From NCBI RefSeq assembly GCF_018304765.1, contig NZ_CP072642.1, positions 479,501-543,500 on the forward strand: a DNA stretch of 64,000 nucleotides, in the 5' to 3' direction. The stretch comes from Chloracidobacterium sp. N. GTDB taxonomy: Bacteria > Acidobacteriota > Blastocatellia > Chloracidobacteriales > Chloracidobacteriaceae. A model generated the notes under the pieces. The model worked only from the letters and a program-made list of their open reading frames with translations. It was not told the origin of the DNA and made no database searches. Shown here piece after piece: positions 42,720 to 54,559 of the stretch (the first letter of the stretch is position 1; each line of letters starts with the position of its first letter). A program made the position numbers and the translations under genes.

Positions 42720-44099
42720 ATGTCAAGTGAAGGCTTCCCACGCGCCACAGCCTATCTTCAGTGCATGGAGACAAACTGCCAGGCCACCTACGACGCTGGC
42801 GAGCGAATCTACACCTGCGAGCAGTGCGGTGGGTTGCTCGATGTGCAGTACGAATGGCAACGCGCCCGGTTGTTCGATGTGCTGGAGACCTTCGATGCCC
42901 GGCGTGCGTCTTTTCATCCGCACGACATCAGCGGCGTCTGGCGTTTCCGTGAACTGCTGCCCTTTGTGACTTCGCCCACGCAGATTGTCACCTTGGGCGA
43001 AGGCAACACGCCGGTGTGGGATGTGCCACGCAGCGCCGGCTATGCCGGTCTCAAACGGCTGGCGGTGAAGCACCAGGGTCTCAATCCGACCGGTTCCTTC
43101 AAGGACAACGGCATGACGACCGGCATGGCGCAGGCCCGCCGGCTGGGAGCGCGGGCCGTGGCCTGTGCCAGTACCGGCAACACGTCGGCCTCACTGGCCG
43201 CCTATGCTGCGCGCGCCGGTGTCCACGGAATTGTCTTCATCCCCGGCGGGCGCATTGCCTACGGCAAGCTGGCGCAGAGTCTCGACTACGGCGCGGTGAC
43301 ACTTCAGATCGAAGGCAACTTCGACGATGCCATGCGTCTGGTTCGGGAACTGGCCCGTACTACGCCGCTGTATCTGCTCAACTCGGTCAATCCGTTTCGG
43401 CTCGAAGGGCAGAAGACGATTGCCTTCGAGCTGTTGCAGCAGCGCCGGTGGCGCGTACCCGACTGGGTTGTGGTACCGGGCGGCAATCTCGGCAATGTCT
43501 CGGCGTTGGGCAAGGGCTTCAAAGAACTGCATGACTTGGGGCTGATCGCACGGCTTCCCCGGCTGGCCGTCATTCAGGCGGAAGGTGCAGCGCCGCTGGC
43601 GCAGTGGTACGCCGCCGGCCAGACCGGCAATCTTGCGCCTGTGGCGCGGCCCAAGACCCTGGCGACAGCGATTCAGATTGGCAATCCCGTGTCGTGGTGG
43701 AAGGCCGTTCGCGCCCTGGAGTGGACGAACGGCGTATGTGCCGCAGTTTCCGAACAGGAAATTGCCGACGCCAAAGCCATGCTGGGGCGCGACGGCATCG
43801 GCTGCGAACCGGCCAGCGCCGCAACCGTGGCCGGACTGCGGCGGCTCGTTGGGGGGAGTGTCATTCACCCGGACGCCGACGTGGTGGCGATTCTGACGGG
43901 CAATACCCTCAAGGACCCGGACTTCACGGTGCAATACCACACCGGGCAGCTCTATACCGACGCCGAACGTGAAACCCATCTCACCCGCGCCGAAGGGAAG
44001 CTGACTGCGACCTTTGCCAATACCCCCCGGCGGGTTCCGGCCGATGCCAACGCCCTGCGGCAGGTCATCCTCGACCTTCTGGAAACACCGCCGGCCTGA
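42720..44099 (+). CDS. thrC: Threonine synthase
   Basis: Converts O-phosphohomoserine to threonine with PLP, 459 residues. An N-terminal zinc-ribbon-like segment (LQCMETNCQATYD, YTCEQCGGLLDV) precedes the fold, as in long-form threonine synthases. The PLP lysine is in LNPTGSFKDNGMTTGMAQA (Lys near 128), followed by ACASTGNTSASLAAYAARAG and PGGNLGNVSALGKGF. The ATG at 42720 is four bases after the desulfurase stop, so the two genes are coupled. No thrA or thrB is adjacent. Confidence 0.94.
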   Translation: MSSEGFPRATAYLQCMETNCQATYDAGERIYTCEQCGGLLDVQYEWQRARLFDVLETFDARRASFHPHDISGVWRFRELLPFVTSPTQIVTLGEGNTPVWDVPRSAGYAGLKRLAVKHQGLNPTGSFKDNGMTTGMAQARRLGARAVACASTGNTSASLAAYAARAGVHGIVFIPGGRIAYGKLAQSLDYGAVTLQIEGNFDDAMRLVRELARTTPLYLLNSVNPFRLEGQKTIAFELLQQRRWRVPDWVVVPGGNLGNVSALGKGFKELHDLGLIARLPRLAVIQAEGAAPLAQWYAAGQTGNLAPVARPKTLATAIQIGNPVSWWKAVRALEWTNGVCAAVSEQEIADAKAMLGRDGIGCEPASAATVAGLRRLVGGSVIHPDADVVAILTGNTLKDPDFTVQYHTGQLYTDAERETHLTRAEGKLTATFANTPRRVPADANALRQVILDLLETPPA

Positions 44100-44108
44100 T
44101 TGGGGCGT

Positions 44109-44885
44109 ATGCGGCAGGGGGTGCTTTTCCAAAGGCATGGCAGACGACACTGGCTGATCTGGCTGCTTATGGCCGGTTGGCTGCTTGCCGGTGTCGTTCC
44201 TGTCCTTTCCCAAGAAGACGATCCTGAGACCCTGCCGGAAAAAAGCCCCAACTGGACAGAACGCACCGGCGCACGCGCGGCTTTTGTCGCCGATGCCGGT
44301 CTGGCGGCGTTACGAACGACACCTGGCCCCGGCGGCGATCTCAAACAGCGCCTGCGCGTCGGGCGGCGCGTCTATGTGCTTGGCGGACGCCGGGTGGTTG
44401 AAGACCGTGTATATGTGTTCGTCGCCGTGACCCGGCGCACACGGGGCTGGATGGACCGGCGGGCGCTGGTACGTCCGGCCCAGCCGGGAGATGATGCCAG
44501 GCTGCTGGCGCTCATCCGGGCTGAAACCGGCGGCTACGAACGCCTGCGGCTGTGCCGGCTGTTTGAAAACCTGTTCCGCCGGTCGCCCCAGTTGCCAACG
44601 GTGCTGTTGCTGCTCGGAGAAACGGCCGAGGCCGAGGCCCCGCTGATATACCGGCGCGCCGAACGCCGGGTGTCCCAGCGGGCCGCCGCCGGGAATGCCG
44701 ATGTCAGGGCGTACTTTGATGACGAGCCGGCGCTGGATCGGTACAACCGGCTGGGGGTGAAGTTCCGCTATGATGCGGTGCGGAAGGCGTATCGCTACGA
44801 CGGCGCGGCCTACCGGCGGCTGGTACAGCAGTACCCACGCGCGCCGGAAGCCGAAATAGCGCGCCAGCGGTTGGCCGGCTTCTGA
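44109..44885 (+). CDS. Exported protein with SH3-like domain
   Basis: A 258-residue exported protein. The N-terminus has a signal anchor (WLIWLLMAGWLLAGVVPVLS) and a mature part with an SH3b-like strand pattern (AALRTTPGPGGDLKQRLRVG, VEDRVYVFVAVTRRTRGWMD, DRRALV). The rest is Arg/Ala-rich and helical (QLPTVLLLLGETAEAE). Bacterial SH3 domains often bind peptidoglycan. The ATG at 44109 is preferred; a TTG at 44100 is possible. The start is nine bases past the thrC stop, but a functional link with threonine synthesis is not expected. Confidence 0.65.
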   Translation: MRQGVLFQRHGRRHWLIWLLMAGWLLAGVVPVLSQEDDPETLPEKSPNWTERTGARAAFVADAGLAALRTTPGPGGDLKQRLRVGRRVYVLGGRRVVEDRVYVFVAVTRRTRGWMDRRALVRPAQPGDDARLLALIRAETGGYERLRLCRLFENLFRRSPQLPTVLLLLGETAEAEAPLIYRRAERRVSQRAAAGNADVRAYFDDEPALDRYNRLGVKFRYDAVRKAYRYDGAAYRRLVQQYPRAPEAEIARQRLAGF

Positions 44886-44901
44886 GGTGGTTGTGGTCAG
44901 C

Positions 44902-45162
44902 CTACGGGCAGGTACACGGTGCGCCGCTTCCTCCCCGGCGGTCGGCCGCGGCTTCCGCCTGGGCGCGGGTGTCAAATTCGCCAAGCAGGCAGACCTGTCC
45001 GCGGGCGCGCTGCATCTGCTCCGGCGTGCGCGTGTCCACTTCGAGTTTCCCATTGGCGCAGTAGAGACGGTACTTTACGTCTGCGTGAACGATACCAATG
45101 GCCAGGCAGCATGCCAGTCCCAATGCCAAACCTGTGAGCAGCCCTGAGCGCGCGGTCAGCAT
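44902..45162 (-). CDS. Small exported protein, two to four cysteines
   Basis: An 86-residue exported protein with signal peptide LLTGLALGLACCLAIGIVHA. The mature part, about 60 residues, has the charged middle LEVDTRTPEQMQRARGQ and four cysteines (CANG, VCLLG, and PCTCP at the end), possibly forming disulfides. I do not recognise the family. The ATG at 45162 has GGGAGAG at good spacing. It is convergent with the SH3-protein gene and divergent from the helicase gene. Confidence 0.5.
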   Translation of the reverse strand: MLTARSGLLTGLALGLACCLAIGIVHADVKYRLYCANGKLEVDTRTPEQMQRARGQVCLLGEFDTRAQAEAAADRRGGSGAPCTCP

Positions 45163-45233
45163 GGCAAGTTTCTCTCCCTATCCAAAGCAACGTATCCTGT
45201 CCAAGGCAGCATATTGGAGCGTTTCCGGCATAG

Positions 45234-45264
45234 AACCTTTGGTGTGCATTGCACACCAAAGGTT
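45234..45264. repeat. Perfect 14-bp stem hairpin in the helicase leader
   Basis: AACCTTTGGTGTGC and GCACACCAAAGGTT form a perfect 14-bp inverted repeat with loop ATT. It is not followed by a T-run on either strand, so it is not a normal terminator. Confidence 0.85.
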
Positions 45265-45281
45265 GCTTGCGCCATAGTGCC

Positions 45282-45309
45282 GGATGGTTGCCGGTGGTCG
45301 CAACCATCC
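45282..45309. repeat. Second 10-bp stem hairpin in the helicase leader
   Basis: GGATGGTTGC and GCAACCATCC form a perfect 10-bp inverted repeat with an 8-base loop, ending 21 bases before the helicase ATG. With the first hairpin it gives a two-hairpin leader. Confidence 0.8.
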
Positions 45310-45330
45310 AATCTGGCTGGTTTTGATCCC

Positions 45331-46536
45331 ATGCTCAAATTGACGGAAGTCCAACTGCGCCGTCTGGCCGAAACCCTCGATACCCTGCACTTGCGCGGTG
45401 TTCTGGGGGGACATATCCCGGCGGCCCGCAACCGGACGGCGCTCATCGGGCAGGTCGTCGAACAGGCCCGGCAGCACACGGCAGCGGCGCACCGCCTCTA
45501 CGAAGCCGCCCGGCTGACACCGGAGCAGGTGCGCGAGTGGCTGGCCGAAGCCGCCCCCGAACTGCCGCCGGAAGCCCACACGCGCCTGCTCCAGCTTCTG
45601 ACGGCTTCGCTGGAGCCGGGTGAGCTGATTCCGGCCCAGCAGGTGGTGAGCCTGCTGACGATTGGATTGCCAACGGTTCTGGAGGAACTGCGCGAGATTG
45701 AACACCGCCGTCCGCGCCCGGGCCTGACCTATCACGAATTTCAGGTTGCCCGTCACCGCCGGGCGGCCCTCCAGAAGCTGCTCGAAGGCATCGGAACGCC
45801 GGAGCCGCAGCCGTTCGTGCCCGACCCCTTTCAGTTGGCGGCAGTCGCTTTCGTGACCGAAGAAGACAAGGATGTACTCGTGGCTGCGCCGACCGGTTCG
45901 GGCAAAACTTGGATTGCCGAGCAGGCTATCCGGTGCTTCCTCGAACGGGGTGGCACAGCGTGGTACACCTCTCCGCTCAAGGCGCTTTCCAACGACAAGT
46001 TCCGTGAGTTTGGGCGGAAGTTCGGCCCCGATGCCGTGGGTCTCATCACCGGCGACCGCCGGGTGAACCCCGATGCGCCGCTCAAAATTGCCACGACGGA
46101 GATTTACCGCAACGGTCTCTATGACGCCATGACGCGGGACGGCGTTTTTGGCGCGCCGGATTTGGTCGTTTTCGATGAAGTTCACTACCTTGGCGACCGC
46201 CACCGGGGTGTCGTGTGGGAAGAGTCCATCATCTACACGCCGGCTTCGACGCGCCTGCTGATGCTGTCGGCCACGGTCGGCAATGCCAGGGAACTGGCGG
46301 AGTGGGTGACGTGGACGCGCGGCGTCGAGTGCCGGCTGGTGGCGCATCCGCAGCGGCCCGTCGCGCTGCGAACGGCCTTCATTCACCCGGACGGACGCCT
46401 TCAGCCGCTCTTCGAGGAAGGGAGCGCCGGTCGGCTTCAGGCCGATGTCGAAGCCCTGTACATCAAGGCCAAGCAGCAGGAAGCCGCCGCACAGGCGCGC
46501 CGGCGCCGGCCACCTTTTCACCGCCGCCGGCGCTAA
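45331..46536 (+). pseudogene. Ski2/Mtr4-like DEVH helicase, truncated after the first RecA domain
   Basis: An intact 401-residue frame coding only the N-terminal half of a superfamily 2 helicase. An N-terminal helical region (1-165) is followed by motif I AAPTGSGKTWIAEQ (about 185), motif Ia YTSPLKALSNDKF, motif II FDEVHYLGDRHRG (about 280) and motif III LMLSATVGN (about 312). Motifs IV to VI and the second RecA domain are missing. The frame ends in an Arg-rich stretch (RRRRPPFHRRRR) where a full-length Ski2-type protein would continue, and a dispersed repeat begins three bases after the stop. The ATG at 45331 is preferred. Either it is a remnant or a split protein; alone it is unlikely to unwind nucleic acid. 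Confidence 0.7.
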
Positions 46537-46538
46537 CC

Positions 46539-46609
46539 TGGGAGCGCGGGCGTCCCGCCCGCTTCTTTCACTGGCGCACACCCTGGGGGCGCGGGCGTCC
46601 CGCCCGCCT
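46539..46609. repeat. Two copies of the dispersed GC-rich repeat
   Basis: The core GCGCGGGCGTCCCGCCCGC occurs at about 46544-46562 and 46589-46607. They flank a short spacer and sit between the truncated helicase stop and the stop of the convergent redox gene. The third copy in the window is at 35595-35620. Confidence 0.85.
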
Positions 46610-46624
46610 GGGAGTAAGCTGCGG

Positions 46625-49600
46625 TTACCGCTTTTTGTCGTCTCCGGCATACTTGACGCCGATTTTGGTGAGAAACTCCTTGGGTGCAATGCTGCCGATG
46701 AGGGCAAACACATAGTCGTTGGGAATCCGCGCGATTTCGGATTTGTCCCGAATCTTTTCGATGACGACTTCCCGCTCGGTAATCTCGCGGATACCGGCGC
46801 CAAAGTAGGCTTTGATACGGCCGGCATCCATGCCGTAGTACACCCACATTTTGTTTTCGAGCGTCAGGTCTTTCGGAAAATCTGACCGAACGACGAGCGT
46901 GACGTGATTGGCTTCGGCCTCCGGCGGAAACTTGATCGTGCCATCGGGTTGCCGTTGGCCGGTCAGGTCCACGGCCGCTTCGACGGCCGAGTTGCCCGCG
47001 CCGACGACGACAATGTGTTTCCCCTTGAAGGCGCCGGGGTCCTGCAGGCGGTACAGCACCCGGCCTTCAACCTCGCCGGGACAACCCAGTTTGCGCGGCT
47101 CGCCGGCATTGCCAATCGCCAGCACGACCTTGCGCACGCGATACCCCGGCGCGTTTTTGGTGGTCCTGACGACAAAGACTTCGCCCTCACGCGCGATTTC
47201 CTTGCAGCCTTCATATTCCCGGATGACCAGACCGAGCTTTTCGACGGTTTCATCCCACCACGCGAGCATGTTTTCCTTGAGGTCGCCCGGCCCTTCGAGG
47301 CGAATGGTGCCAAGTGGCGGGTCAGAGGGGTTGAAGGGGTTGAAGGCGACGTACTTGCCGGCCGGATACTTGTCGGCGATGGTCGAGTACCGGCGGCCCT
47401 GTTCGATGGCGACGTAGCGCAGTCCCAGTTCGGCCGCCCGCGCCACGGCGGAAATCCCGCCCGGCCCAATCCCGATGATGGCCACGTCGTACTCGGCCCC
47501 GGCGACCGGCCCTTCCGCCTTGAGTTTCTCGGCGATGCGTTCGATGGTGAGCCGCCCTTCCTTGATGGCATTCCGAATAAGCGGCACGCCGGATACGTCC
47601 CCGACGAGGTAGATGCCCGGCGCGGTTTCGGTTTCAAAACCTTCGTTGGCGCCTTTGCGCAGCGGCTTGGGCGCTTCCCGGATGTTTTGCCGCGTGTTGA
47701 TGAGAACACATGACTGCGGCACGGTCGGACAGGCCTGCTGGCAGCCGGTGTCTTCCATGCACTGTTCGAGGTTGACGACGATGGCGTGGTGTTCCTGTTC
47801 GTCGAAGCCCAGCACGTCCTGGGGGCAGGCCAGAATGCAGGCGTGGCAGCCAATGCAGGTTTCGTAGTTGATGACCGGGTGCGGAACAGGATTTTCGCGG
47901 GCCGAGGCGCGCGCGCGTTCGACCTGGGCCGGCGATTCCCACCGCTCGGCGTAGCGCGTGTCGGTAAACTTGCGGTGCCGGTTCGCCAGATCGAGGGGGT
48001 TGCCCTTGAGCGTTGCCTGTTCCCGCCGTTTGCGCAGCGTGTCGAAGGTCAGAAACCCGATGCCGGTGAGTGGAATGAGGCTGAAAAACAGCAGCCAGTT
48101 GCCAACGGTGAACCCGCCGAACCTGGCCGCCAGACTTGTCCACTGCCAGTCCTTTCCGCCCCGGTACACCCGGTCTTTGGTGAACACGACCGGTTCGGGG
48201 CCGCTGCCGGCCGGGCGGCGGGCCGCCGTCAGCGTTTGCGACTGGGGGTGCTGGGCGTGGCAGGAGTTGCAGTCAATGCCGAGGCGCAGGGCGTCGGTGT
48301 CCAGTTCCCTGAGCGATGCGGTTTGGACGTATGCCTGCCCGTGGCATACGGCGCATTTGTCGCGGTTGATGACCTTGACCTCGGCCGCGCCTTTGGCAAA
48401 CGAACCGTCATGGCACTCGCTGCACTTCCAGGCGCTCGTGGCCGGCGCAACGGCGGCGTGAATGAGGTGAAACTTGGTCGAAGGATCGAGCGGCGTCCGG
48501 CTTTCGGCAAAGAGTTTGTCCCACTTCGGATTCATCGGATGCTGCCACGACCACACGCCGTTTTCGACCGGATAGCCGAATGAGCCACGGTGCGGTTCGC
48601 GCAGGGGCGTGCCGTCCTTCAGACTGACGGCCTTGGGATGGGTTGGCCCGTCGCGGTGGCAATCAATGCACATGCTGCGCGAAACGATGCCGGGGCGGAA
48701 ATCCGCGCCTTTGTGCTCGGTGTGGCAGTCCACGCACTGAATCCCGGCTTCTTCGTGTCTGGCAATGACGGTCGTGTTGAAATGGTTGGTTTCGTGGCAG
48801 TCCACGCACTTGTTCTGCATGGAGGAAGTGGCGGCATGGCAGGCATTGCACTTGTTTTCCACCGGCGCGTTGGCCACGAGCTTCAATTCCAGCCGCTGCT
48901 GGATGGGGGCCGGCAACCGGTCAGCCGGAAGGGCATGCGGATTTGACGTGTCGCCCGGCAGGTAGGCCGCTTCCCAAACGAAGAAGGCTGCCACGCAGAA
49001 CAGGGTTGCCACTGCGCCAAAAACATACAGGTAGCCCCGTGGCCACGGACGGATCAGATCGTTGGTGGGAATCCAGTTGAACCGTTTTTTCCCCAGGTGC
49101 AGGTTGTGCTTTTTGAGTTCTTCGGGGAGTTCGCGGGGTTCGAGCGGAGACCGCTCATCCAGCTTCTGCTCGCCCGTGATGGCCGCCTTGCGCCGCTCCC
49201 AGAAGACGTTCATCGCCTGCTGAAAACGCTTCTGTTCCTGCTCCGGCAGCGCGAGGATGGAGGTCAGCAGACCGGTCATGCCGCGCTGGAGGCGGGCCGC
49301 CTGGAGCAGTCCGGTCGCCGTTTGTGGTGGCGGCGTCTGTTCCGGTGGCTCCGGCGTGGCACCGGTGAGCGGTGTTTCCAGGCGTTGTGTTTTACCGCTC
49401 AGGTTTTGCGTCATGCCGCGCTGTTGCAGGTAGCCGGTCAGCTTTGGCAGCAGCGCCGTCCTGCCCTGGGCGGTGGCCTGAAGGGGGTCGCCCAGCAGGC
49501 GTGTGCTGCGTTCAGAAGCCGCGTAAGTATCCACCTGCCGGTCCACGTCAAGCGTCAGAGCGCCTTCTGCAAGCGTCGGCCGGAGAACAAAAATGCCAAT

Positions 49601-49864
49601 GCGGATGACATCATCGGGCTGGAGTTCGACCGTTTCAACCAGAGCGCCGTTGACCTGGGTGCCGTTCGTGCTGGAAAGGTTCGTCAGCCACCAGCGCCCT
49701 TCGACTTCCCGGATGCCGGCATGAATCCGCGACACCGTGGGATGATTGAGCATCAGGTCACAGTCGGTCTGCGAGCCGATGACCAGCCCTTCCAGTTCGA
49801 GGACAAGGTCGCCCTTGTCAAGAAGGTCTTTCCGCTGAATGAGGAAGCGACTGAGTTTCGCCAT
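46625..49864 (-). CDS. FHA - multihaem cytochrome c - ferredoxin - permuted flavoprotein fusion
   Basis: A 1079-residue redox fusion. Order: an FHA domain (about 1-100; SRIHAG and STNGTQVNG present, but the usual pThr Arg after Gly is Ser); a basic linker; TM1 (about 278-298); seven CxxCH haem c sites (339, 353, 377, 399, 481, 504, 532); TM2 (about 584-607); a ferredoxin-like segment (CIGCHACILACP at 670, then CMEDTGCQQACP); then a flavoprotein with the GDVSGVPLIRNAI motif (about 755) placed before GIGPGG (798) and GAGNSA (955). There is no TrxR-type CxxC. With FHA inside, haems outside and the rest inside, the topology is consistent. It is downstream of the cNMP gene by 83 bp. Confidence 0.85.
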   Translation of the reverse strand: MAKLSRFLIQRKDLLDKGDLVLELEGLVIGSQTDCDLMLNHPTVSRIHAGIREVEGRWWLTNLSSTNGTQVNGALVETVELQPDDVIRIGIFVLRPTLAEGALTLDVDRQVDTYAASERSTRLLGDPLQATAQGRTALLPKLTGYLQQRGMTQNLSGKTQRLETPLTGATPEPPEQTPPPQTATGLLQAARLQRGMTGLLTSILALPEQEQKRFQQAMNVFWERRKAAITGEQKLDERSPLEPRELPEELKKHNLHLGKKRFNWIPTNDLIRPWPRGYLYVFGAVATLFCVAAFFVWEAAYLPGDTSNPHALPADRLPAPIQQRLELKLVANAPVENKCNACHAATSSMQNKCVDCHETNHFNTTVIARHEEAGIQCVDCHTEHKGADFRPGIVSRSMCIDCHRDGPTHPKAVSLKDGTPLREPHRGSFGYPVENGVWSWQHPMNPKWDKLFAESRTPLDPSTKFHLIHAAVAPATSAWKCSECHDGSFAKGAAEVKVINRDKCAVCHGQAYVQTASLRELDTDALRLGIDCNSCHAQHPQSQTLTAARRPAGSGPEPVVFTKDRVYRGGKDWQWTSLAARFGGFTVGNWLLFFSLIPLTGIGFLTFDTLRKRREQATLKGNPLDLANRHRKFTDTRYAERWESPAQVERARASARENPVPHPVINYETCIGCHACILACPQDVLGFDEQEHHAIVVNLEQCMEDTGCQQACPTVPQSCVLINTRQNIREAPKPLRKGANEGFETETAPGIYLVGDVSGVPLIRNAIKEGRLTIERIAEKLKAEGPVAGAEYDVAIIGIGPGGISAVARAAELGLRYVAIEQGRRYSTIADKYPAGKYVAFNPFNPSDPPLGTIRLEGPGDLKENMLAWWDETVEKLGLVIREYEGCKEIAREGEVFVVRTTKNAPGYRVRKVVLAIGNAGEPRKLGCPGEVEGRVLYRLQDPGAFKGKHIVVVGAGNSAVEAAVDLTGQRQPDGTIKFPPEAEANHVTLVVRSDFPKDLTLENKMWVYYGMDAGRIKAYFGAGIREITEREVVIEKIRDKSEIARIPNDYVFALIGSIAPKEFLTKIGVKYAGDDKKR

Positions 49865-49947
49865 GGTGGTTTCCAGGTTCGGTGAAGAAAGGTTGCTGGT
49901 CGCGCCAGCGGGGGAGAGCGGTCATACGACGTTTCAGGTCGCGCGTC

Positions 49948-52572
49948 TTAGCGCCACAGGTAGTACACCACCTGAAGAATATGGACGACCATGAGGGCCA
50001 GCATCACGGAAGTCGAAATGACGTGTGGGGGCAGCCACAGCTTCAGCGCCCGGTGAATGTAGAGCAGCGCATCAATCCGCCGGATGGTGGCCAGGGCGTC
50101 GAGGATTTGCCCCAGAACGGCCTGCTCGGTCGGCGTCGTCTGGCTGGCGATGGCTTTGGCAAAGCGTTGCCGCACGTGTTTTAGCAGATCGTCCAGGGCT
50201 TCCCGGCGCAGGTATTGCCGGAAGAGAAAACCCAGTGAAAGCAGCGTCGCCACGGCCTGGTCGCGTGCGACCAGAAACGTCTGGGCAAATTGCACTCCGC
50301 GCCCTTCTTTTTCGGCCTGTTCCTGGGCCGTTACGGTCAGGTCGGCAATTTCCTGGTACAGCTCTTCCCGCCGCCGCAGCAGGTCTTCGGCCAGAAGCGG
50401 CTCGCCCTCGATTTTGGTCAGCAGTCGGGGGCCAAGCTGATACAGCAGGATGCCGATGAGTCCAGTCAGGATGACCAGATCGAAGGAAATCATCAGCGCC
50501 GCTGTGACGGCCCCACCCAGGTTCGTTCCGCCGTGAAGCAGCAGGACAATACCGGCGATGACACCGGCGTAGGTGTGCGACAGCATCCACACCTTGAGCG
50601 CTCCTCCCCGTCGCCGCCACATCTGCCGGCGGACGGGATAGAGCATGACGATGACGATGCCAGCCAGTCCGACCAGTCCGGTGATCCAGCGGAAGTTGAA
50701 CCAGTCCGACCTGAAGAGCGGTGTTCCCAGCCCATACTGGACGATGCCGGCCATAGTGGCCCCGCACAGCAGCACCGTCACCACAATACCCACCAGGTGC
50801 GCCAGCCACTTGGCCCGGTCGGCATGTCCAAACGCATTGCCAACGATCATCGCACCCGAATGACGCAGGGCCGGGCCGTGAATCCGGGCAATTTCGTTGA
50901 AGTAGGCGGTGGGCTTTACCCGTTTGAGCGCCCCGGTCGGGCAGTTTTCCTCGCAGTTGTACTTGTGGGTGGTATAAACCGGCTTGCCGCTGGCGTCCTT
51001 CGGATTCAGGGGCGTGTTGTTGCACAGGTTACATTTGATGGCGACCAGTTCTTCCCCTTGCGTCACCGGCTGGGGTTTGGGGTCAAAGCGCAGTCCGAAG
51101 GCTGCCAACGGGTCAACCGGCGTTTCCGGCGCGGATTCACCTTTGGCCGCCCCCCCTTTGCCGTTGCGGGACGCCCCGTTTTTGGAAGGTGCGGCCTTGG
51201 AAGGTGCCGCCTTGACCGGCAACCTGGCCGCGGGGGCTTTGAGTTCGCTCCGGGGGATGAGAGAAATGGCATTGTAGGGGCACTGGGTCGCGCAATCGCT
51301 GCAACCAATGCACAGACTGGGAAGGATATCCACCTGTCCCCCCTCGAAGCGTGCAATGGCCCCAGTTGGGCAACCGGTCAGGCACTCCGGGTCCTTGCAG
51401 TGCAGGCACACGGACGGCATCAGCAGGGATTGATTGAGCGTGGTGTGCGTCGGCGTCCTGGGGCGCAGGACGTGAATCCCGGTTCGCTTGAGCCGGGCCT
51501 GCCCGTGAATCTGATGGCAGGCCAGCGAGCAGTTGCCGCAGCGGATGCACAGGTCCATGTCCATCAGCAGCAGGTTGTTGGCATCTGCCAGCCCACGGTC
51601 GAGGATACGTTCCTGAGCCGCCTTGACGGCCGGGTTGAAGACCAAGGCTTGCGTCGGCTGGAGGGGTGTGCCGATGTCTCCGGCAGCCCCCAGCGCTGCC
51701 CGCAGCGCCTCCAGCAGGGCCGGGTCGCGGTGGAGAGCTTCAACCGGGATTTCCAGCAGTTCGGTCCGGCTCATCGCCACGGCCCGGTAGGGAAACCGCG
51801 CCTCACGGACGGTCAGAGCATTGAAACCAAGGATGTAGCCCGGCCCCAGGTAATCCGTGACTTCGCCGTTCTGTGCCTGTCCAATGCGTTTGACCCAGCC
51901 ATCCCGGATGAGCAGCAGCTTGCGGATGACTTCGCCTGCACTGGCCAGGACATGGCCCCGGGCAACCAACTGAAAATCCGCAATTTCGGCGACTTTTTTC
52001 CGCAGTTCGTCGGGAATCTGAAGCTGATTGGCAACGGCTGCGCGTCCGTTGTTGCGATAGGTGATGTCCAGCGCCGCTCCAAACTTCCTGAGCTTGCGCA
52101 GGACGCGCAGCGCCGGCCGTTGGACTTCCAGCACCCGCGCGCCGCGCTGCCGGTGGGCGATGACCGTGGCGCTGCGTGGCATCCCGGCCAGTACACCCAT
52201 TTCACCGAAGGGTTTGCCCGGCTCAAAAACAGCCACCGGCTCGGCCACGCCGGCCACGAAGACTTCGACCGCCCCGGCAACGACGATGAAGAACGTGTTG
52301 GTGTCCCAGTCGCCCTGGCGTACGATCTCCAGTCCCGGTGGATAGTCATACATCCGTATGTAGGGCCCCACCTTCTTGCCGGGGCCGTAGTTGCGCCCGT
52401 AGATGGCAACTTCCAAATCCACGCCAAACTTGTAGCCATGGCCGGGTTCGTATTCGACCAGCTCTTCAATGGCTGAAATCCCCCGGATGGCTTCGAGGAT
52501 GGCATGCCGGTTGGCGATCTCCTGACGTTTCATCGCGGTGGCTGTCACGGTGGCCGTCGCCGCAGCGTTCAT
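49948..52572 (-). CDS. Cyclic-nucleotide-binding - polyferredoxin - cytochrome b-like membrane fusion
   Basis: An 874-residue protein. Two cNMP-binding-type beta domains: the first (about 72-165) with a canonical cassette FGEMGVLAGMPRSATVIA; the second (about 195-290) degenerate. Four Fe-S cysteine groups: CIRCGNCSLAC (342-352), CLHCKDPECLTGCP (390-402), CIGCSDCATQCP (421-432) and CNLCNN with CEENCP (514-545). A Lys/Ala/Ser-rich linker (440-490) separates the third and fourth groups. Hydrophobic helices lie at about 589-613, 630-646, 664-685, 690-712 and 851-871, with membrane His at 666, 680, 850 and 864 as possible haem b ligands, and a charged coiled-coil insert at 730-840. Start: ATG at 52572 with GGAG upstream. 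It is the first gene of the two-gene unit. Confidence 0.83.
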   Translation of the reverse strand: MNAAATATVTATAMKRQEIANRHAILEAIRGISAIEELVEYEPGHGYKFGVDLEVAIYGRNYGPGKKVGPYIRMYDYPPGLEIVRQGDWDTNTFFIVVAGAVEVFVAGVAEPVAVFEPGKPFGEMGVLAGMPRSATVIAHRQRGARVLEVQRPALRVLRKLRKFGAALDITYRNNGRAAVANQLQIPDELRKKVAEIADFQLVARGHVLASAGEVIRKLLLIRDGWVKRIGQAQNGEVTDYLGPGYILGFNALTVREARFPYRAVAMSRTELLEIPVEALHRDPALLEALRAALGAAGDIGTPLQPTQALVFNPAVKAAQERILDRGLADANNLLLMDMDLCIRCGNCSLACHQIHGQARLKRTGIHVLRPRTPTHTTLNQSLLMPSVCLHCKDPECLTGCPTGAIARFEGGQVDILPSLCIGCSDCATQCPYNAISLIPRSELKAPAARLPVKAAPSKAAPSKNGASRNGKGGAAKGESAPETPVDPLAAFGLRFDPKPQPVTQGEELVAIKCNLCNNTPLNPKDASGKPVYTTHKYNCEENCPTGALKRVKPTAYFNEIARIHGPALRHSGAMIVGNAFGHADRAKWLAHLVGIVVTVLLCGATMAGIVQYGLGTPLFRSDWFNFRWITGLVGLAGIVIVMLYPVRRQMWRRRGGALKVWMLSHTYAGVIAGIVLLLHGGTNLGGAVTAALMISFDLVILTGLIGILLYQLGPRLLTKIEGEPLLAEDLLRRREELYQEIADLTVTAQEQAEKEGRGVQFAQTFLVARDQAVATLLSLGFLFRQYLRREALDDLLKHVRQRFAKAIASQTTPTEQAVLGQILDALATIRRIDALLYIHRALKLWLPPHVISTSVMLALMVVHILQVVYYLWR

Positions 52573-52879
52573 AGGATATTGTTCTCCAGGTAGGGGTGCC
52601 CACCAACGACCGACTGGGTGGTGATGATGGGCGCGGCAAGGTGTTTGGTGCCAGGTTGAGAGGTGGCCTGTGCTGGGGGATGAAGATAGCCGATTTGTGA
52701 ACAAAACAACACTCCGGGGACGGCCTCCCGAAAGGTTGAGCTGCCCGGCCGCCTGACGCTTGGCAGATGACCGCGTGGGCGTGACATATTGGTGTCGGCA
52801 ACCTGGCGGCGTACCATGCACTGGAAGTGACGCAAATGCCAGGGAACAGACGATCTTTTCTGCGAGGCATCTTCAATCC
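52573..52879. other. 307-bp divergent control region
   Basis: Lies between the cNMP-fusion gene (minus) and the phosphatase gene (plus). Candidate -10 sequences are TATCTT on the minus strand (52683-52688) and CATATT on the plus strand (52785-52790, with TTGGCA 19 bp upstream). Neither is a strong match. A CRP-like palindrome (TGTGA-N6-TCACA) was looked for and not seen. No gene is supported here. Confidence 0.35.
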
Positions 52880-54559
52880 ATGAGTTTTTCCCGAATGTTG
52901 GTGGCGGCCCTGGTGCTGGCGGGCACGGTGCTGCCATGTGTTGGGGGGCTGGGCACGGCTTCCTGTACGGCTGCCCAGAACCGCGCAAATGCCGCCGGCT
53001 ACCGGCTCGTCGTGGGGATTGTCGTCGATCAGTTGCGGGCGGATTATCTGGAGCGTTTCGACGATCTGTTTGGTGAAAAGGGTTTCAGACGGCTTAAAAC
53101 CAAAGGCGCGTACTTTGCCAATGCGCACTACGGGCATGCCTGTACCTACACCGGGCCGGGTCATGCCGTGATCCTGACCGGTTCCACGGCCGCCATAACC
53201 GGCATCATTGGCAACAAGTGGTATGACCGCCAAAGCGGCAAGGTCATCGAAAGCATCACGGATGAGACAACAACCGGTGTCCCCGAAGGCAAAGGGGCCT
53301 CACCCCGGCAGTTGCTGGTTTCCACTCTGGCGGACGAACTCAAAGCGGCAACGGGCGGGCAGGCCAGGTCCATCGGTATATCGCTCAAAAACCGTGGCGC
53401 GATCCTGCCGGTCGGACGTACCGCCGACGCTGCCTACTGGTTTGACGACAAGCGCGGACAGATGCAGACCAGCACCTACTACATGAAAGAACTTCCGGCG
53501 TGGGTGGCGGCCTTCAATGCCCGGCGGATTCCCGATCAGTGGTTTGGCAAAACCTGGGAGAAGCTGCTGCCGGAAGCGGTCTATGCCCGCTGTACGGCGG
53601 ATGATGTGCCTTATGAAGGGCGCTTTGCTGGCGGCGGGGCGGCTTTCCCGCACCAGGTCGGCCGCGGCGACAAACCCAATGCCCGGTTCTATGACGACTT
53701 CACCATGACGCCCTGGGCCAACGACTTTCTGGTGGAGTTTGCCACCGCGGCCATTGAAAACGAACGGCTTGGCGCCGACGACATCCCCGATGTCCTGACC
53801 ATCAGCTTTTCGGCCAACGATATTCTCGGTCACGCCTTTGGGCCGAACAGCCACGAGGTGCTCGACATCACGGTACGGACTGACCAGACCCTTGCCCGGC
53901 TGCTCGATGTGATTGACGCCAAGGTGGGCCTCGACCGGACGCTGGTGTTCCTGACGGCTGACCACGGTGTGTCGCCGGTGCCGGAATATGCCCGGCAGCA
54001 ACGTCTGCACAGCCGCCGGATTCCCTTCGAGCAGGTGGCAGTGGCGATGAAACGCGCTTTGGACGCAAAATTCGGCGCCGGGCAGTGGTTTGCCGGCTTT
54101 TCGGCTGAGTCCGTGTACTTCGATCTGGCGACCATCGCGGAGAAAAAGCTCGAACGTGCCGAGGTGGAGCGGGTGGCCGCCGAAGCTGCACTGACGGTCG
54201 AGGGCATTGCCGCCGCCTTTACCCGCACCCAAATTCTGTCCGGCGGCCTGCCGCGAACACCCTTGGCCGAGCGCGTCCAGATGGCCTTTCACCCACAGCG
54301 CAGCGGGGATGTCTTTCTCGTGCCCGAACCGTTTTGTTTTTTCGGCAGCGAGGAATACACCACGGCGACAACCCACGGCACACCTTATGCTTACGACACG
54401 CACGTGCCGGTCATGCTCATGGGGCGCGGTCTTCGCCCCGGCACGTATTGGGCGGAGGCCAGTCCTTCGGACATTGCCCCCACCCTGGCGGCCCTGCTGG
54501 GGATTACGCCGCCAAATGGCACGGTAGGGCGGCCGCTCCAGGAGGTGCTATCCCGTTAG
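52880..54559 (+). CDS. PafA-like alkaline phosphatase / phosphodiesterase superfamily enzyme
   Basis: A periplasmic phosphate-releasing enzyme of the alkaline phosphatase superfamily, 559 residues. Signal peptide MLVAALVLAGTVLPCVGG. Motifs: VVGIVVDQLRADYLERFDDL (first metal Asp), the nucleophile Thr in TYTGPGHAVILTGS (Thr near residue 86), GIIGNKWYDR, FSANDILGHAFGPNS and LTADHGVSPVPEYA. These match PafA-type phosphate-irrepressible phosphatases. Start: ATG at 52880 (MSFSRMLV), which begins the signal peptide; earlier in-frame codons do not. It is divergent from the redox genes. Confidence 0.86.
   Translation: MSFSRMLVAALVLAGTVLPCVGGLGTASCTAAQNRANAAGYRLVVGIVVDQLRADYLERFDDLFGEKGFRRLKTKGAYFANAHYGHACTYTGPGHAVILTGSTAAITGIIGNKWYDRQSGKVIESITDETTTGVPEGKGASPRQLLVSTLADELKAATGGQARSIGISLKNRGAILPVGRTADAAYWFDDKRGQMQTSTYYMKELPAWVAAFNARRIPDQWFGKTWEKLLPEAVYARCTADDVPYEGRFAGGGAAFPHQVGRGDKPNARFYDDFTMTPWANDFLVEFATAAIENERLGADDIPDVLTISFSANDILGHAFGPNSHEVLDITVRTDQTLARLLDVIDAKVGLDRTLVFLTADHGVSPVPEYARQQRLHSRRIPFEQVAVAMKRALDAKFGAGQWFAGFSAESVYFDLATIAEKKLERAEVERVAAEAALTVEGIAAAFTRTQILSGGLPRTPLAERVQMAFHPQRSGDVFLVPEPFCFFGSEEYTTATTHGTPYAYDTHVPVMLMGRGLRPGTYWAEASPSDIAPTLAALLGITPPNGTVGRPLQEVLSR

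Follow-up and report, generated by a model that had tools for sequence, protein, structure and literature searches.

Sequence evidence for a conserved circular permutation of the FAD domain in a ferredoxin-fused multiheme flavoprotein of Chloracidobacterium

A fusion protein of Chloracidobacterium sp. N carries its two FAD motifs in the reverse of the usual order, with the GxYxxGD segment before the GxGxxG core. This raises the question of whether the FAD domain is truly rewired and, if so, what such a protein would do beside a ferredoxin and many hemes. We analyzed the stretch of 64,000 nt from the forward strand of GCF_018304765.1 (NZ_CP072642.1, 479,501-543,500), here called the window, and all nucleotide positions follow its numbering. 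The original prediction had placed the GxYxxGD segment at about residues 751-770 and GIGPGG at about residue 798, behind a ferredoxin and without a CxxC redox pair. The layout of the protein agrees with it in each of these respects:

46625..49864, minus strand: fusion protein of 1,079 aa, with FHA first, then a seven-heme domain flanked by two membrane helices, a ferredoxin and the permuted flavoprotein
49595..49783, minus strand: FHA domain, residues 28-90 (PF00498, 6.5e-18)
48974..49030, minus strand: first membrane helix, residues 279-297 (hydropathy)
48257..48850, minus strand: residues 339-536, with seven CxxCH heme motifs and a predicted periplasmic location (motif positions; Cytochrom_c3_2)
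48038..48106, minus strand: second membrane helix, residues 587-609 (hydropathy)
47708..47884, minus strand: ferredoxin domain, residues 661-719 (Fer4_10 at 662-713)
47513..47647, minus strand: residues 740-784, the C-terminal piece of the FAD domain in its displaced position (FETET..GIYLVGD strand followed by a helix)
47617-47597, minus strand: GIYLVGD, from residue 750
46637..47491, minus strand: FAD/NAD(P) core, residues 792-1076, whose final strand is the one that normally precedes GD (profile and Pyr_redox_3)
47456..47473, minus strand: GxGxxG motif GIGPGG, residues 798-803
46985..47002, minus strand: second dinucleotide motif GAGNSA, residues 955-960

Pfam assigned the FHA domain (28-90), cytochrome c3-like stretches, a 4Fe-4S domain (662-713) and Pyr_redox (792-1073; Pyr_redox_3, 1.3e-25) to this protein. 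Seven CxxCH motifs lie between the two membrane helices, and an eighth match at residue 670 is the CIGCH of the ferredoxin. The FHA domain, the ferredoxin and the flavoprotein part are therefore probably cytoplasmic, and the hemes periplasmic. The ferredoxin has cysteines at residues 670, 673, 676, 680, 702, 708, 712, and 719, beyond which only Cys887 and Cys928 follow, leaving the flavoprotein part without a CxxC. In the second cluster motif of the ferredoxin, Asp705 takes the place of the usual cysteine (CxxDxxC), and all seven distant rows of the same domain arrangement (type A, below) have a histidine there (CxxHxxC; alignment A2). By sequence, such a replacement may indicate a 3Fe or site-differentiated cluster.

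The order of the FAD domain was examined with a 325-position profile built from 20 ordinary-order YpdA-like proteins (L040-L059) from genomes of the same class. In the window protein, profile positions 279-322 matched residues 740-784 (i-E 5.9e-5), and positions 2-273 matched residues 792-1076 (i-E 9.6e-50). Together these two swapped pieces cover the unpermuted profile, which is the pattern of a circular permutation. The chain also ends as predicted, in the strand normally preceding GD, with VFALIGS at residue 1052, 21 residues before the chain end. The same swapped order was found in 36 of the 36 proteins scanned with this profile, a set that includes several near-copies and one broken gene (L007); the tail piece alone was weak in some of them (i-E up to 6e-3).

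As a control, a tail model was run against 2,733 unique six-frame ORFs of at least 100 aa from the retrieved loci and the window. The tail preceded the head in 53 ORFs, which include one gene fetched repeatedly, and followed it in 31, with no ambiguous case. The window protein scored 19.3 bits and the permuted ORFs 10.4-36.6 bits, while the ordinary-order ORFs scored 76.9-108.7 bits in 20 cases and 5.3-15.0 bits in the 11 others. The maximum was 5.0 bits for ORFs without a flavoprotein head and 9.6 bits for reversed ORFs, the latter being near the weakest permuted rows. A chance motif was excluded by this background scan, and an assembly or frame artefact was rejected because the swapped order recurs across many genomes and on a plasmid.

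The likeness extends upstream of GD, for example FETNVPGLYVAGH in an ordinary-order protein and FETNVKGIFIAGE in a permuted one. In a 10-row family alignment, the GxGxxG glycines and the second G of GxYxxGD are invariant, and the next residue is D or E, with E in most of the distant permuted relatives. This position also varies elsewhere, being V or P in the five true YpdA proteins. Separately, GH replaces GD in all 15 ordinary-order YpdA-like proteins L045-L059 from Blastocatellia-type genomes, including that of the window genome itself (L051). We also noted a CxxC..CxxC pair between the two core profile pieces in six of six proteins L015-L020 (e.g., residues 782-799 of L017); it is perhaps a zinc-ribbon or rubredoxin-like insert and is absent from the window protein. 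Judged by sequence, the GxYxxGD segment ahead of the GxGxxG core is a conserved circular permutation, and we regard the swapped order and its conservation as firm.

The spatial arrangement was approached with an AlphaFold2 model of residues 727-1079, made from a 25-row alignment in which the ordinary-order rows had been trimmed to contain no GD segment. The model has a pLDDT of 79.8 and a pTM of 0.75; an earlier one, with 6 rows and the ferredoxin included, was poor (pLDDT 49). Its elements follow in sequence as strand 751-753, helix 763-784, beta-1 strand 792-797, and onward. Mean pLDDT over ten-residue blocks is 87-88 in the region of the displaced strand and 90-94 over the main part of the helix, and falls below 50 for residues 758-761, directly after GDV. 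The best Foldseek match was YpdA (7a76, E 1.1e-18). VIA-align placed model residues 64-351 on residues 2-274 of 7a76_D (Z 22.2, rmsd 3.3 Å, 265 residues), so that the FAD and NAD(P) Rossmann domains both superpose in a TrxR/YpdA-like fold. As the core superposes on YpdA 2-274 only, the YpdA tail is left for the early segment to supply. Both alignments are sequential; that most rows leave out model residues 1-62 is consequently uninformative on the fold of these residues. When the family profile was compared with solved structures, a second match fell on the YpdA tail in the swapped relation (i-E 240 and 510, non-significant alone). The original prediction proposed superposition on thioredoxin reductase and YpdA to see whether the two FAD motifs meet in space. 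The core does superpose on YpdA, and the strand, helix and beta-1 order fits; a contact of the two motifs with FAD would follow if the early segment takes the place of the YpdA tail. We consider the early segment likely to complete the FAD site.

The early GD-like segment could instead be a remnant of an ancient fusion or of a tandem copy, with a core that binds FAD unclosed or not at all. The poorly predicted loop after GDV and the weak tail scores of some members (10-14 bits) would fit this. However, every permuted protein scanned keeps the segment next to its core, no second GD segment follows at the C-terminus of the window protein, and the strand and helix are modeled well apart from that loop (block pLDDT 87-94), which makes a leftover improbable. 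About equally improbable is a domain swap, in which the segment would complete the FAD site of a neighboring subunit and the permutation would work only in an oligomer. According to PMC8564101 and PMC10294844, low-molecular-weight TrxR-like enzymes are dimeric, and in TrxR-like ferredoxin-NAD(P)H reductases (FNRs) the C-terminal subdomain reaches the FAD of the partner. Against this, the linker from the displaced helix to beta-1 in the window protein has only about 7 residues and a single chain was modeled as a compact unit (pTM 0.75), although a swap could accommodate both.

The closest curated model and the closest solved fold are those of YpdA, or Bdr, the bacillithiol disulfide reductase (PDB 7a76, 7a7b, 7apr), in contrast to which the FAD halves are swapped here and fused to a ferredoxin and hemes. 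The curated model TIGR04018 gave 122.7 bits over positions 1-265 of 316. A true YpdA was excluded by this score, which lies under the cut-off of 339.9, and by the swapped order, as YpdA has its FAD motif first and its closing segment last. YpdA itself is not known to have a CxxC, which the flavoprotein part here also lacks. The closeness to YpdA in model score and fold could still point to a disulfide reductase for low-molecular-weight thiols. We find this very unlikely, as the score is far under the cut-off, the protein is fused to a ferredoxin and hemes, and cytochromes are neighbors in most loci examined. Thioredoxin reductase of the TrxB/AhpF type has the same two-domain fold, but here the order is swapped and the CxxC of the NADPH domain is missing, which excluded a true TrxR.

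TrxR-like FNRs offer a functional comparison. They consist of FAD and NAD(P) domains without a CxxC and commonly transfer electrons between NAD(P)H and the Fe-S cluster of ferredoxin or the FMN of flavodoxin, as described in PMC8564101 and PMC10294844. Their order is ordinary and their ferredoxin separate, whereas the window protein is permuted and has its ferredoxin fused. By analogy, the fused ferredoxin and the missing CxxC are consistent with their way of working. The absent CxxC and the genes nearby both fit the prediction that electrons go to the Fe-S clusters instead of a disulfide, as far as sequence can indicate.

The gene context begins 83 bp upstream, with a partner gene on the same strand:

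49948..52821, minus strand: partner gene, with two cNMP-binding stretches, 4Fe-4S motifs and a cytochrome b-like membrane part
49951..50901, minus strand: residues 641-957 of the partner, its cytochrome b-like part, including His749/His763 and His933/His947

The true start of the partner gene is possibly inside this ORF. Two histidine pairs, each 14 apart, in two membrane helices are the pattern of a bis-heme cytochrome b. The partner has this pattern, and its four histidine columns are kept in 14 of the 14 aligned rows.

We compared 20 distinct type A loci, counting L004 and L061, which share one contig, once and leaving the window uncounted. A cytochrome b relative on the same strand was detected by profile in 17, and was missing from the stretch fetched around L067, L071, and L076; the alignment behind this profile contains 13 of the 17 loci. 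Searching with the cytochrome b part of the window alone gave a match in 14 of the 20. An ORF with at least four CxxCH on the same strand was likewise present in 17; L067 and L071 have none, and the one in L076 is on the opposite strand. For L001-L004 and L073, this ORF is the fusion protein itself, and in ten loci (L064, L065, L066, L068, L069, L070, L077, L078, L079, and L039) neighboring ORFs hold 13 to 51 CxxCH. On an Emticicia plasmid, a cytochrome b-like protein and the ferredoxin-flavoprotein occur with two proteins annotated as cytochrome c3 family. The known MtrC/MtrF-type systems receive their electrons from quinol through a CymA-type protein. In the present family the relatives adjoin large multiheme cytochromes, two of two tested having an MtrC/MtrF domain, but a flavoprotein-ferredoxin and a bis-heme b-like protein stand in the place of that feed, in what would be a candidate export system.

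Some further features of these neighborhoods were recorded. Heme-free proteins of 538-614 aa adjoin the giant cytochromes in L064, L066, L070, and L039; none of the four has a Pfam match, and they are possibly outer-membrane partners. In the window, a DEAD helicase ORF of 440 aa (45214-46536, plus strand) shows no helicase C-terminal domain at E <= 0.001 and may be truncated. Two G+C-rich direct repeats of 26 nt (46537-46562 and 46582-46607) lie between the helicase stop and the end of the flavoprotein gene. Rfam gave no match over 44000-54000.

The family is not confined to this genus. A match to the ferredoxin-flavoprotein query at E <= 1e-30 was found in 47 of 297 acidobacterial genomes, many matches covering nearly the whole query and others the core only. 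The Emticicia plasmid encodes a 440-aa version, and on a Pseudoalteromonas plasmid the permuted domain, also in swapped order, forms the N-terminus of a longer protein. The permuted order thus spans Acidobacteriota and Bacteroidota and appears, as part of a different fusion, in a gammaproteobacterium. No viral relative was found with the window protein. Viral scans with the family and YpdA profiles gave 5 and 27 loci, and among 29 distinct stretches from these, GD lies beyond residue 200 (ordinary order) in 19 and was not located in 10.

Three arrangements were distinguished. Type A, that of the window, runs ferredoxin, GD, core. Type B (L072, L075, L080) runs GD, core, and a membrane part with Fer4 motifs, which we take to be NapH/NosR-like. 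Type C (L074) keeps the ordinary order and carries two cNMP domains and a ferredoxin behind it. The three group together (93/88) on a 66-row tree, for which 11 of 77 rows, near-copies and a fragment, had been dropped beforehand. On this free tree, the ordinary-order L074 has a long branch and shares an open fork with types A and B (93/88). The test did not reject a clade uniting types A and B (p-AU 0.39), and from the sequences a single origin of the permutation is likely. A cytochrome b relative is missing from all three type B loci; the permuted domain is therefore found apart from this conduit as well. In type C, the locus has a cytochrome b relative (2e-36) and an FHA protein with ten CxxCH, showing that the same modules recur in other fusions. 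At L074 1958-7636 (minus strand), the ordinary-order flavoprotein, two cNMP domains and the ferredoxin form one such shuffled set with these two neighbors. A type B relative also occurs in the window genome itself, where it is broken up among different reading frames (L060, G000:C2, about 214.0-216.5 kb); its membrane part had matches in one of seven genus genomes searched, that of the window.

Taken as a whole, the protein probably contains a permuted, thiol-free YpdA/thioredoxin-reductase-like FAD/NAD(P) domain working along a path from NAD(P)H through FAD, Fe-S, and the b hemes of the partner to c hemes, or in reverse. In it, the strand and helix that ordinarily close an FAD domain precede beta-1, with the ferredoxin fused at the new N-terminus. 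A possible reason is that the permutation brings the ferredoxin close to the flavin by setting it next to the GD strand. From the analogy with TrxR-like FNRs, which transfer electrons without a CxxC, we infer that the domain binds FAD and NAD(P)H, and that NAD(P)H would reduce FAD, which would pass single electrons to the Fe-S clusters. From there, electrons would pass by way of the partner's two b hemes to the seven c hemes in the periplasm, or the flow would be reversed. The conduit role is plausible. Control by cyclic nucleotide and phosphothreonine through the cNMP-binding and FHA domains is speculative.

In the reversed case, the periplasmic hemes would be the source of electrons, which would move inward by way of heme b and Fe-S and reach FAD, and NAD(P)H would be formed with the aid of the membrane potential or photosynthesis. 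The same parts would serve either direction, and the closest named relative of the fusion protein (91% identity) is from Chloracidobacterium, a phototroph. Potentials would favor the outward direction, however, and many relatives belong to other acidobacterial groups and to Emticicia; inward flow therefore appears rather unlikely.

Database names cover the core alone, which has kept the family hidden: Pfam and NCBIfam name only that part, and two public records read "NAD(P)-binding domain-containing protein". Among the matches listed from the open-licence literature, no description of a permutation in this fold was found. A natural circular permutation is known in a flavin-binding domain (PMC13327496, citing Murzin 1998); that domain is a beta-barrel, whereas the domain here is an FAD Rossmann domain. 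A permutation that cuts the Rossmann FAD domain while both halves are conserved is a rare test of the tolerance of the fold to rewiring. More tentatively, and with somewhat less than even confidence, we propose that a natural permutation within the Rossmann FAD domain of two-dinucleotide-binding flavoproteins gave a widespread family that would serve as a cytoplasmic port to periplasmic or extracellular multiheme cytochromes, with the ferredoxin beside the flavin and with the Chloracidobacterium conduit gated by cyclic-nucleotide and phosphothreonine signals. If the proposed role is true, these proteins would be the enzyme through which electrons enter the multiheme cytochromes of Acidobacteriota and Bacteroidota, and would give a phototrophic lineage an outlet for reducing power that may be under signal control.
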